A DNA stretch of 64,000 bases, from positions 4,774,001-4,838,000 of the forward strand of contig NZ_CP042968.1 in assembly GCF_001693515.2 (NCBI RefSeq). The letters are read 5' to 3'. Within the stretch, counting starts at the first letter, position 1. Each line of letters starts with the position of its first letter. The DNA comes from Bradyrhizobium paxllaeri. GTDB taxonomy: Bacteria > Pseudomonadota > Alphaproteobacteria > Rhizobiales > Xanthobacteraceae. The translations under genes were made by a program, and so were the position numbers. Below are positions 16,136 through 48,677 of this stretch, piece after piece. The notes below the pieces were generated by a model. That model worked only from the letters and a program-made list of their open reading frames with translations. It was not told the DNA's origin and did not search any database.

Positions 16136-16340
16136 ATGCACTCTCGCGACGTTCATCGCCCGAGGTTTGCATCTTCGTTTGCCCTCGCTCCAATCAAGAG
16201 GGCGCAGGGAAGACCGGGTGCTTGCCGCACCCGAGGTCTCGTGTGCCGTTGCGCATAGCAAAAAACGCACGCGAGCATACAGGTACAGCGGGAGCATCCC
16301 GGCCTTCCCTGCGCAATGGCTTTACGGCTTACTTCGTGCT
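16136..16340. repeat. left part of a long dispersed repeat, interrupted by the IS110 element
   Basis: Sequence around GAGGGCGCAGGGAAGACCGG and CCTTCCCTGCGCAATGGCTT, ending at TTTACGGCTTACTTCGTGCT, matches from memory a non-coding repeat common in Bradyrhizobium genomes. Frames in it are often annotated as spurious proteins. It continues on the far side of the IS at 17631. Its outer left limit is approximate. Confidence 0.65.
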
Positions 16341-16359
16341 CTTGTGTCCGCAAAATCTG

Positions 16360-16527
16360 CCAGAATGTGCGAACGGGCGGTTCTGACCAACCGCCCGTCG
16401 CTGGATCTGATCCCGTTCGTGCTCAAAGGCCGAGAGCCTGTCGGGGAGCGAGGGACAGATCCGGTGGTCTTCCTCAACCCGAACAGTTGCACGGGCTTCG
16501 AGCCCGAACCGAGCAAGGAAGGGAGTG
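16360..16527 (+). ncRNA. putative bridge RNA of the IS110 element
   Basis: Three ordered structures are visible. (1) A perfect 10-bp 5' hairpin, 16373-16382 with 16389-16398. (2) A target-binding arm closed by GGATCTG-A-TCCC (16403-16414) with GGGACAGATCC (16452-16462) and an inner AGGC/GCCT hairpin. (3) A donor-binding arm closed by CTTCCT (16469-16474) with AGGAAG (16516-16521) and tipped by CGGGCT/AGCCCG. TTCGTGCT at 16416-16423 equals the left target flank, CGGGGAGC at 16442-16449 is the reverse complement of the right flank, and ACAGTTGC at 16483-16490 equals the element's right end. The right donor guide is weak (CAAG at 16514-16517 against CTTG at 16341-16344). RNA ends are approximate. 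Confidence 0.65.
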
Positions 16528-16528
16528 G

Positions 16529-17527
16529 ATGATGGCACAAGATGAGGTCGTTGTCGTCGGTATTGATGTGGCCAAGGACAAGGTGGATGCGTGCATTCGC
16601 TCGCTGTCTCAATGGCAGACGTTCCCAAGTACCGCGGAGGGGCAGCGTGCCCTGATCCGCTGGCTTCGCAAACACAGGGGCGGCAAGGCAGCCATGGAGG
16701 CTTCCGGCGGTTATGAGCAGGACTGGGCCAAGGCGCTGCGCGAGGCCCGCATCGAAGTCCGGATCGTCGACCCGAAGCGGGTGCGCAGCTTCGCCCGCTC
16801 GGCCGGACGCCTCGCCAAGAACGATCCGATCGATGCGGAGATGATCGCCTGGTTCGCCGAGACCTTCACCGAAGCACCGGGCCAAGCCTACGACGCGGCA
16901 CGCGAGAGGTTGGTCAAGATCGTCAATGCACGCCAAGGACTGCTCGATCTACAGACTAGCTTGAAAAACAGTGGCGAGCATTCCGTGCCGGACGTCGTGC
17001 AGAAAATGCAGGCGCGGCTCTTGAAGAAGATTGCCGTCGAAGTCGCCAAGCTCGATACTGCGATCGCAGCCCAGGTCAAAGCGACACCGCATTTTGCCGA
17101 GCTCGCCGAGATCATCGAGAGCGTGCCGGGACTTGGCAAGATCACTTCCGCCGGACTGATCGCGACGATGCCGGAACTGGGCCAGGTGAACGACAATATC
17201 GTCGCGGCCTTGTTGGGGGTAGCACCTTACGATGACGATAGTGGCCAACGGCGGGGCAACCGCCACATCAAGGGCGGACGCCGAAAGGCCCGCAACCTCT
17301 TCTACATGCCTTGCATGGGAGCTGCGACCCAGCACAACCCCGTGCTCAAGGCGTTCTATGACCGCCTGATCGCCAAGGGAAAGGAGCCGAAGGTTGCGCT
17401 CACCGCCTGTATGCGCAAGCTCATCGTCATCCTCAACACCATGATCGCGCGACGCCAAAAATGGGACGCCAACCGCTACAAAGTGAGCGACCCCGCTCGG
17501 CTTCCGCCGAGCGCATGCCCAGCCTAA
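16529..17527 (+). CDS. IS110-family transposase (DEDD recombinase)
   Basis: 332 residues. The N-terminal RuvC-like DEDD domain shows Asp13 in VVVGIDVAKDKVDA, Glu57 in AAMEASGGYE, and Asp99 and Asp102 in KNDPIDAEMIAWFAE. The C-terminal Transposase_20 domain has IIESVPGLGKITSAGLIATM and YDDDSGQRRGNRHIKGGRRK, where Ser238 is the candidate nucleophile by analogy with characterised IS110 recombinases. An AAGGAAGGG site precedes the double start ATGATG (16529 or 16532). The frame is open further upstream but there it overlaps the structured RNA. Full length, with no frameshift. Confidence 0.93.
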   Translation: MMAQDEVVVVGIDVAKDKVDACIRSLSQWQTFPSTAEGQRALIRWLRKHRGGKAAMEASGGYEQDWAKALREARIEVRIVDPKRVRSFARSAGRLAKNDPIDAEMIAWFAETFTEAPGQAYDAARERLVKIVNARQGLLDLQTSLKNSGEHSVPDVVQKMQARLLKKIAVEVAKLDTAIAAQVKATPHFAELAEIIESVPGLGKITSAGLIATMPELGQVNDNIVAALLGVAPYDDDSGQRRGNRHIKGGRRKARNLFYMPCMGAATQHNPVLKAFYDRLIAKGKEPKVALTACMRKLIVILNTMIARRQKWDANRYKVSDPARLPPSACPA

Positions 17528-17630
17528 AGACCGGTGAGCGGATGGGGTCAAGGCCGTCAGCCGCCGGAGGCGGTGGCGCGTAGCGCCAGCCTTGAGGCCA
17601 GCCGATCACAGGGCTACATCAACACAGTTG

Positions 17631-17960
17631 CTCCCCGGAGAACGGCTCTTTTGCCTCCGTCGCCACGCGAAAAACTTCCACGCGACTTAACGCCAGCACC
17701 GCGGCGCCCGGACCACACGACTTCGCCGTACGCCTCACGTCACGTCCGTCGTCGTGACATCAGCGTCCATCGCATCTCACCGCACGTTCGTGACGATCGC
17801 GAGCCGCCCCTCCATCGGGTGAGACAAGCGGAGTTATGCGACTGATTTGGGTGAGAACGAAAGCGGAGAATTTTTGCGCGGGCGGCTGGACACAATATCT
17901 AGCTGATTTGCTCCTCAACCTGCGCGAGATTTTCGCCGGCCGCCGCGTGAACCAGATCAC
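17631..17960. repeat. right part of the long dispersed repeat after the IS element
   Basis: No gene supported. It resumes with CTCCCCGGAGAACGGCTC and continues through GGACCACACGACTTCGCC, TTCGTGACGATCGCGAG and GGCGGCTGGACACAATATCT. This is the order in which I remember the repeat in related genomes. Together with 16136-16340 it would form one uninterrupted unit. The right limit is approximate. Confidence 0.6.
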
Positions 17961-47498: not shown

Positions 47499-47858
47499 GT
47501 GCGCTTCTCCCGACACGTCGGGTGTGCGCAGAGCTTGGACGATGGGCCGTCTGACGGGGAGCCTGCTTTGTCCCCGGTGGGGCAAAGCTACGACCGAAAC
47601 CGGTGTGACGCAAGGTGTGATCGCGCAGGATGGTGGAGCCAACGGCTCCGGCCTTCGGCCGGCCCGATGATAAACTCCGCGATACCCATCCTTTCGTGCA
47701 TTGGGGCCAAATCGATGGGGTTCGCTGCGCTCTACCCACCCTACAGATTGACAGCCGAACCAGCGCGCGCTTAATTCGGCGCATGGGGATGTTGCGATCT
47801 CCCCACGAGGCGACATGCCCAAGTATCGCGTCCCGTTTTATTTGACGAGGGCGCAGCC
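47499..47858. other. intergenic region with a palindromic repeat
   Basis: 360 bases without a gene. Around 47630-47751 a repeat unit has GGTGGAGCCAACGGCTCCGG, GCCTTCGGCCGGCCCGATGA and an end GCTGCGCTCTACCCACCCTA, related to 50091-50186. The last 100 bases carry a GGGGATGTTGCGATCTCCCC hairpin (about 47787-47806) and probably the chrB promoter. Confidence 0.5.
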
Positions 47859-48677
47859 ATGTCATCCTACACCACGATATCTCCAGACAAACTTTCCAAA
47901 CTGATCGGCACGGCAAACATGCCGGCCTTGATCGACGTTCGCACCGACGAGGATTTCGCCGCCGACCCACGGCTCATTCCGGGCGCGGTCAGGCGCAATC
48001 ACGAGGAAGCCGCTGATTGGGGCGAAGCGTTTTCCGGCCGCCCGGCGATCGTCGTCTGCCTGCGCGGCCAGAAACTGGCGCAAGGCACCGCTGCCTGGCT
48101 GCGGCATCTCGACGTCGCGGCCGAGGCACTCGATGGCGGTTTTGAAGGCTGGAAGGCGGCAAAACTGCCGCTGGTGCCGGCCGCTAGGCTTCCCGCGCCC
48201 GACGCGAAAGGCCGCACCGTCTGGGTCACCCGCGCCCGGCCGAAGATCGATCGCATCGCTTGCCCGTGGCTGATCCGCCGCTTCGTCGATCCGAACGCGG
48301 TATTCCTGTTCGTCACGCCGGCGGAAGTGCTCGCGGTCGGCGAGCGCTTCAAAGCGGCGCCGTTCGACGTGGAAAATGTGTTCTGGAGCCACCGCGGCGA
48401 GCTCTGCACCTTCGATGTCATGATCGAAGAGTTTGGTCTGGCGACGCCGCCCCTGCTGCGGTTGGCGACGATGGTACGCGGCGCCGACACCGGACGGCTC
48501 GATCTGTCGCTGGAAGCGCCCGGACTGCTCGCAGCCTCCCTCGGCCTGTCGCGGATGTTCGACGACGACCTCGAACAGCTCGAGGCCGGCATGACGCTGT
48601 ACGACGCCTTCTACCGATGGTGCCGCGATGCGACCGGCGAGACCCACAACTGGCCGACCAACAAGGCGAAGCCATGA
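47859..48677 (+). CDS. chrB: chromate resistance protein ChrB-type with rhodanese domain
   Basis: 272 residues. The N-terminal rhodanese domain (about 10-108) has LIDVRTDEDFAADPRLIPGA and the active loop IVVCLRGQKLAQGTA with its Cys; DGGFEGWKAAKLPL closes it. The C-terminal ChrB domain (about 125-265) has WVTRARPKIDRIACPWLIRR, FVDPNAVFLFVTPAEV and GELCTFDVMIEEFGL. It is a sensor or accessory protein for the adjacent chromate exporter. The stop overlaps the chrA start as ATGA. Confidence 0.9.
   Translation: MSSYTTISPDKLSKLIGTANMPALIDVRTDEDFAADPRLIPGAVRRNHEEAADWGEAFSGRPAIVVCLRGQKLAQGTAAWLRHLDVAAEALDGGFEGWKAAKLPLVPAARLPAPDAKGRTVWVTRARPKIDRIACPWLIRRFVDPNAVFLFVTPAEVLAVGERFKAAPFDVENVFWSHRGELCTFDVMIEEFGLATPPLLRLATMVRGADTGRLDLSLEAPGLLAASLGLSRMFDDDLEQLEAGMTLYDAFYRWCRDATGETHNWPTNKAKP

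Follow-up and report, generated by a model that had tools for sequence, protein, structure and literature searches.

Bridge RNAs that guide insertion sequences of the IS110 group were described by Durrant et al. 2024 (PMC11208160), whose available sections also describe how IS621 of E. coli was retargeted on a plasmid by changing only the RNA loop. For the seekRNA systems, natural reprogramming between relatives is reported in the accessible part of Siddiquee et al. 2024 (PMC11187229), there for the IS1111-family elements ISEc11 and ISXne4. Targeting of REP repeats by IS110 elements had been reported by 2006: in the excerpted text of PMC1525189, ISRm19, ISPpu9, ISPpu10 and ISPa11 have copies in such repeats (4/4 for ISRm19), and no guide is mentioned there. 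Repeats of Bradyrhizobium are likewise described in the available parts of PMC5082802 and PMC3733652.

We analyzed a window of 64,000 nucleotides from an 8.38-Mb Bradyrhizobium genome in a single contig, which contains an element that agrees with the bridge-RNA description. As IS621 is presented in the available sections of PMC11208160, the two are alike in having a left-end RNA (predicted here) with a 5' stem-loop, a target arm and a donor arm, and in the order and strands of the guides. They are also alike in their CT core, junction promoter (a candidate here), REP-type repeat targets and DEDD plus Ser-Gly recombinase (PMC11208160, PMC11208158, in part). With ISEc21 and the IS110/IS1111 seekRNA systems the element shares a longer non-coding region upstream of the gene and a bottom-strand match that precedes the top-strand match, whereas its targets are others; donor guides do not come up in that text (PMC11187229, in part). 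As for the four REP-associated elements above, its copies lie in repeats, and the apparent reprogramming between its relatives recalls that of ISEc11 and ISXne4. In contrast to IS621, the target program is CGNGCT-CT-CCCCG, and the right target guide including the core has 7 nt, versus 4 (7 when extended) in the accessible account of IS621. The element is not named in the titles and abstract openings listed by searches of one open-access library on IS110, bridge RNA, seekRNA, ISCro4 and Bradyrhizobium repeats. We are highly confident that it belongs to the IS110 group of insertion sequences and that a bridge RNA guides the site-specific recombination by which it moves, with target guides that address one segment of a chromosomal repeat. 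The features of the locus, by position in the window, are as follows.

16230..16340, + strand: portion of the interrupted repeat to the left of the element, some 100 bp; 23 genome matches, 6 interrupted by the insertion sequence
16334..16340, + strand: left target TCGTGCT, with its bottom strand read by the left target guide
16341..17632, + strand: whole insertion sequence, core to core, from the comparison of copies in the genome
16341..16342, + strand: CT core, left copy (in empty copies of the repeat, ...CT-CCC or CT-TCC)
16361..16366, + strand: -10-like CAGAAT, 4/6 bases of the sigma-70 consensus
16373..16398, + strand: 5' stem-loop of the predicted bridge RNA (predicted fold; 9/10 pairs invariant in 37 sequences)
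16399..16466, + strand: target-binding arm (predicted fold)
16416..16424, + strand: left target guide TTCGTGCTC, that is TTCGTGCT plus the core C; effective from -7 to -1 plus the core C
16442..16448, + strand: right target guide CGGGGAG, 7 nt, pairing with CTCCCCG at 17631-17637
16469..16525, + strand: donor-binding arm (predicted fold)
16483..16490, + strand: left donor guide ACAGTTGC; the same eight bases stand at 17624-17631 (ACAGTTG of the right end and the core C)
16508..16517, + strand: right donor guide; CAAG (16514-16517) with CTTG (16341-16344), wobble G16513-T16345
16529..17527, + strand: IS110 DEDD recombinase, 332 aa, motifs D13, E57, D99, D102 and S238-G239
17528..17630, + strand: short right end, last bases ACAGTTG (left donor half)
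17631..17632, + strand: right copy of the CT core
17633..17637, + strand: right target CCCCG

The recombinase scores above the gathering score for both PF01548 and PF02371 (Pfam) and above the cut-off of the NCBIfam model 'IS110 family RNA-guided transposase'. A phmmer search of the PDB sequences (E <= 0.001) retrieved only IS621 (5.9e-33) and ISCro4 (2.1e-32). The IS110 identity proposed in the initial annotation is thus supported by Pfam, NCBIfam and IS621 homology together. The catalytic D, E, D and D and the Ser-Gly residues are all present; the Ser was placed by eye, two columns off HMMER's own alignment. Non-coding ends of 186 bases upstream of the gene and 103 downstream put the longer end upstream, as in the IS110 group; in IS1111 it is downstream. 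The features of IS1111 elements, long subterminal inverted repeats and an RNA in the right end, were not found: the RNA-like structure and the guides lie in the left end, and near the joined core only an ACACA/TGTGT inverted pair (5 bp) was seen by eye. Elsewhere in the genome, two adjoining partial IS110 recombinase matches, 43% and 40% identical (L018/L019, genome 2056229-2057163), look like a split gene, and a single 49-bp match of 86% to the element's right end (L007, genome 7965160-7965208) is a relic or a related repeat. The window also contains two matches to Rfam families of cis-regulatory RNAs, on opposite strands with about 200 bases between them, chrB-b at 47528-47576 (-) and chrB-a at 47780-47861 (+).

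The strings and coordinates of the initial annotation are right: TTCGTGCT at 16416-16423 recurs at 16333-16340, CGGGGAGC lies at 16442-16449, and ACAGTTGC at 16483-16490 recurs at 17624-17631. Its guides stand, with the core and the right target guide redrawn. The core had been included in a stretch at 17630-17637, opposite an eight-base right guide at 16442-16449. In the empty copies of the repeat, CCC or TCC comes directly after CT; the relative L035 shows TTCGTGCTCTCCCCGG uninterrupted. Because empty sites read GCT-CT-CCC, the core is CT (16341-16342/17631-17632) and not the wider GCTC that is common to both junctions. The eighth base formerly counted in the right guide would pair with the element's own G17630. 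A first model of the empty site, GCTCCCCGG, had no matches and was rejected, the repeat copies showing GCT-CT-CCC instead.

For the right donor guide, described before as 4-5 pairs, we found four Watson-Crick pairs and a G-T pair. It may be longer and interrupted: C16509 and A16508 possibly pair with G16346 and T16347 after three looped-out bases, which would resemble the interrupted pairing of IS621 in the accessible part of PMC11208158. The evidence for these outer two pairs is weak; they fit in 22/24 unique pairs when four loop lengths and wobbles are allowed, under which chance fits are common.

Among 20,000 dinucleotide-shuffled versions of the left end, 21 contained TTCGTGCTC, 761 CGGGGAG and 39 ACAGTTGC, and none had any two of them together. 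This bears on an alternative in which the repeat is read by the recombinase protein by itself, and the matches in the left end are chance or remnants of targets captured at transposition. Besides failing to co-occur in the shuffles, the matches sit in the two predicted arms, sense then antisense, 75-150 bases from the left end, which argues against that explanation.

The left end, 188 bases long (16341-16528), resembles a bridge RNA of the IS110 type and is placed upstream of the recombinase gene. The fold of 157 nt from 16372 has a z of -3.23, with 0/200 shuffles as stable, and that of the full 188 nt, with 31 extra 5' bases, has a z of -2.18 (5/200 shuffles). The predicted fold (16373-16398; 16399-16466 and 16469-16525) reproduces the 5' hairpin and two arms proposed before. 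A search of Rfam returned no bridge-RNA family at the gathering score. Among 37 unique left ends, 3/38 named pairs change on both sides (as many in 16/500 shuffles), and 92.6% of cells are paired, versus 92.0% in shuffles and at most 56% when slid. RNAalifold's own structure has a both-side change in 1/42 pairs, and in the inner target hairpin only 48% of the cells of the 37-sequence alignment pair. Covariation of the arms, a check named in the initial annotation, is therefore weak, because the stems hardly vary; the covariation that is seen is that of the guides with the target DNA. Variation in the stems neither proves nor contradicts the fold, and with so little of it we dropped stem covariation as proof of an RNA.

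A left end with a strongly structured predicted fold, immediately ahead of the start codon, would also suit a leader regulating transposase translation, as an attenuator or antisense target and not as a guide. Such a role could coexist with guiding. It does not explain the donor-guide match, nor why the columns most variable between target classes match the insertion site, and we give it almost no weight.

For the bridge-RNA reading that we prefer, we infer the circle, transcript, binding and chemistry from IS621. Excision as a circle would join the ends and place TTGCTT (17628-17632 plus 16343) 17 bases upstream of CAGAAT, with the -35-like hexamer spanning the core. TTGCTT-17-CAGAAT is a weak sigma-70-like candidate promoter, matching the consensus at 3/6 and 4/6 bases. 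CAGAAT is found at that spacing in 18/22 subfamily-1 rows with both ends (CAAGAT, CAAGAT, CAGAAC and CAGGAT in the others), and three rows of subfamily 2 have TAGGAT, TAAAGT or TATACT at the -10-like place. Conservation of TTGCTT carries little since it follows from the conservation of the ends anyway. From the left end, the rebuilt promoter would give a bridge RNA some 155 nt long. The first arm of this RNA would read the target, its left guide on the bottom strand and its right guide on the top strand, each in contact with the core; the second arm would read the element's own joined ends. The DEDD/Ser recombinase would then exchange strands at the CT core, within the repeat segment that the target guides address.

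Six copies of the element are present in the genome, and any two of them show no more than one difference, at position 16648. All six are in the same repeat and in the same orientation. Their outer flanks are unrelated except for two matches of 93 and 134 bp, and they were therefore taken as independent insertions. The left flanks vary at -8, -7 and -4 and keep C G. G C T; the right flanks all read CCCCGG directly past the core. The comparison of copies and flanks that the initial annotation had proposed as a check thus came out in its favor, with 6/6 genome copies in one repeat and matched at the guide bases near the core, and with the flanks of 86 relative insertions following the guides. 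As the six copies have identical protein and guides, the two are inseparable inside one genome, which suits reading by protein alone equally.

Using the 111 bases left of the element as query, we found 23 places with the repeat, 22 of them with a site that the pattern could read (all but L130), of which 6 are occupied and 16 empty. The motif CGNGCT-CT-CCCCG is present in 6/6 occupied and 0/16 empty copies (p 1.3e-5, for a motif defined after seeing the occupied sites). None of the 16 empty copies has CGNGCTCTCCCCG: its left half is found in 10, its right half in 6 and both in 0. A plain count of mismatches over 12 positions did not separate the groups significantly (0, 0, 1, 2, 2 and 2 in occupied versus 1-3 in empty copies; 6,138/100,000 shuffles). 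Position penalties from relatives only, learnt from 18 unique guide-site pairs of class A relatives with the host genome left out, gave 0-0.41 for occupied and 1.73-2.6 for empty copies (2/100,000 label shuffles). Because the weighted test separates the groups and the plain count does not, we conclude that the position of a mismatch is what matters. The six genome sites suggest a seed of -6, -5, -3, -2 and -1 on the left and +1 to +5 on the right.

Genome-wide there is one empty CGNGCTCTCCCCG (at 6267114), with no trace of the repeat in the bases around it. The pattern GGCTTAN{3,9}GCTCTCCCCGG has 0 intact matches in the host genome. It is present in 237/265 genomes of the genus and so absent in 28/265; the zero is therefore not rare by itself. 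Relatives of the same target class keep empty sites (three in G237, thirty-seven in G039), and saturation is therefore not general. Five of the empty copies (L110, L111, L113-L115) match at all 8 left bases and on the right read TCCCG in place of CCCCG. TCCCG is not an absolute bar, because three relatives (L022, L024, L029) sit at TCCCG with a CCCCG-type guide.

A recombinase match at E <= 0.001, in some cases weak or partial, was found in 144/265 genus genomes. With at most 8 candidates scored per genome, we used part of the matches listed, 91 loci at 60% protein identity or more, six of them from the host genome. Guides could be read in 91/91 loci, 89 by the pattern and 2 by a looser one. 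Five loci lacking a flank (L021, L022, L037, L045 and L048) were left out beforehand, and 86 insertions with both flanks, representing 22 unique guide pairs, were counted. For L030 and L027 the left guide was read one base out of phase and stands uncorrected in the match count. Left guides match their own targets at 5.89/7 positions, versus 3.45 (sd 0.41) with guides shuffled among elements, and right guides at 3.66/6 versus 2.32 (sd 0.25), with 0/20,000 shuffles as high in either case. Shuffling only within target classes, which does not fully remove the relatedness of elements, reached the observed match in 89 (left) and 26 (right) of 20,000. Sliding the target by 1-5 bases lowered the left match from 6.12 to 1.67-2.24 and the right from 3.98 to 1.31-2.16.

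Among the 67 unique guide-site pairs, matches are seen at left positions -1 to -6 in 67, 64, 63, 55, 62 and 57, and at right positions +1 to +6 in 64, 57, 48, 40, 40 and 6. Position -7 matches in 38/67 and -8 in 8/54. Thus the left guide of the initial annotation is borne out except for its outermost T (-8), which does not track the targets. Covariation extends to single bases: L023 and L026, with right guide CGGGAAG, sit at CTTCCCG. Against the guide reading we counted the insertions at poor sites (L020, L024 and L049 on the left, L085 on the right), and in L022, L024 and L029 the right guide has not followed the TCCCG target. L020 and L049, both of G237, are two of five copies of a 95%-identical element and lie outside the repeat, with right target CCCCG and a left target that is one-base-shifted or poor. 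The sequence shows the guides, core, targets, predicted architecture and a covariation of guide and target; as expected of the IS110 group, the target guides can pair with both strands of the target and covary with it.

The relatives fall under several target programs beneath a nearly constant donor guide. The target is CGTGCT-CT-CCCCG in class A, ACGCCC or GCGCCC-CT-CT.. in class B and TGCGCC-CT-CT.. in class C, and a single element (L027) has CCGAC-CT-CTCCC. The composite repeat that holds the class A target also has sequences resembling the class C target, on its other strand (L109-L111, L113-L115). Two class C copies (L080, L081) have left flanks without the repeat's CGGTCTTCCC and still read CTGCGCC-CT-CT. 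In class B the left guide is nearly always matched and the right one often not (for example, guide CTGATA versus CATCTC, CGTAGG and CGTGCC). In the window, a sequence much like the class B target (CGTGACGATCGCGAGCCGCCC-CT-CCATC) occurs at 17789-17816, about 160 bases past the class A insertion.

The four target classes need 6 changes (minimum 3, shuffled mean 18.5) when placed on a recombinase tree that has 43 distinct members of >=280 aa, with 3 rows as outgroup. That guide class largely follows the tree would be expected if the protein read the repeat. The starred branches alone force 2 changes for class A. The class A address would then stand in at least two recombinase lineages, by convergence or by exchange of left ends.

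A second IS110 subfamily has three copies in the host genome (L015-L017), with a recombinase 37% identical, at GCCCACC-CT-AC; GCCCACC is also found in the place of their left guide. Its left end has a similar predicted architecture (z -1.86, 10/200 shuffles). By script, guide and flank agree in all 7 bases at 19/22 loci of this subfamily. For L153 the pattern gave a misreading, and by eye its flank is GCCCACC, the same as its guide; L157 has a changed guide without a change of flank, and the flank of L159 is one base shorter. At three loci (L160, L162, L163) guide and flank both read ACCCATC instead of the GCCCACC of most others. A joint change is also seen in the left donor guide and the right end, with ATGGTTG in both in three subfamily-2 rows versus ACAGTTG in both in subfamily 1. 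L093 has a partial donor change on both sides, and the donor of L162 fits less well (ATTGTTG versus ATAGTTG). A third, differently built IS110 group comprises 5/20 loci (L158, L161, L164, L170, L171). Its leader has CCCTGTGTCT, preceded by GGGT or GGAT, and farther along TTGGGTCC and ACAGTTGCA; the pattern used did not detect the right end of this group.

Guide differences between relatives are mirrored at the flanks, also within target classes, down to the single-base covariation of L023/L026 and the changes in L160/L162/L163. These observations argue against reading by the protein alone, which we consider very improbable. Under bridge-RNA guidance, we put at about an even chance a more specific account in which a fixed guide pair filled every CGNGCT-CT-CCCCG copy of the repeat and left empty the 16 copies mismatched near the core. 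In the subfamily, by the same account, the target arm would be an evolving cassette under a nearly fixed donor arm, with several programs on closely related recombinases and CGTGCT-CT-CCCCG in at least two recombinase lineages, through convergence or left-end exchange.

The kind of element is already known; what is added is this element, its address and a natural record of occupancy. Bridge RNAs are under development as programmable recombination tools, for which natural mismatch tolerance and the history of retargeting are of direct use. The host genome lets occupied and empty copies of a repeat be compared base by base, and the subfamily supplies, in genomes that are well sampled, a large set of near-identical elements whose addresses differ, as well as new orthologues for testing. 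Together they record with unusual clarity how guide specificity and retargeting look in nature: among the copies and relatives, where the predicted address RNA has changed, the landing place has usually changed too.
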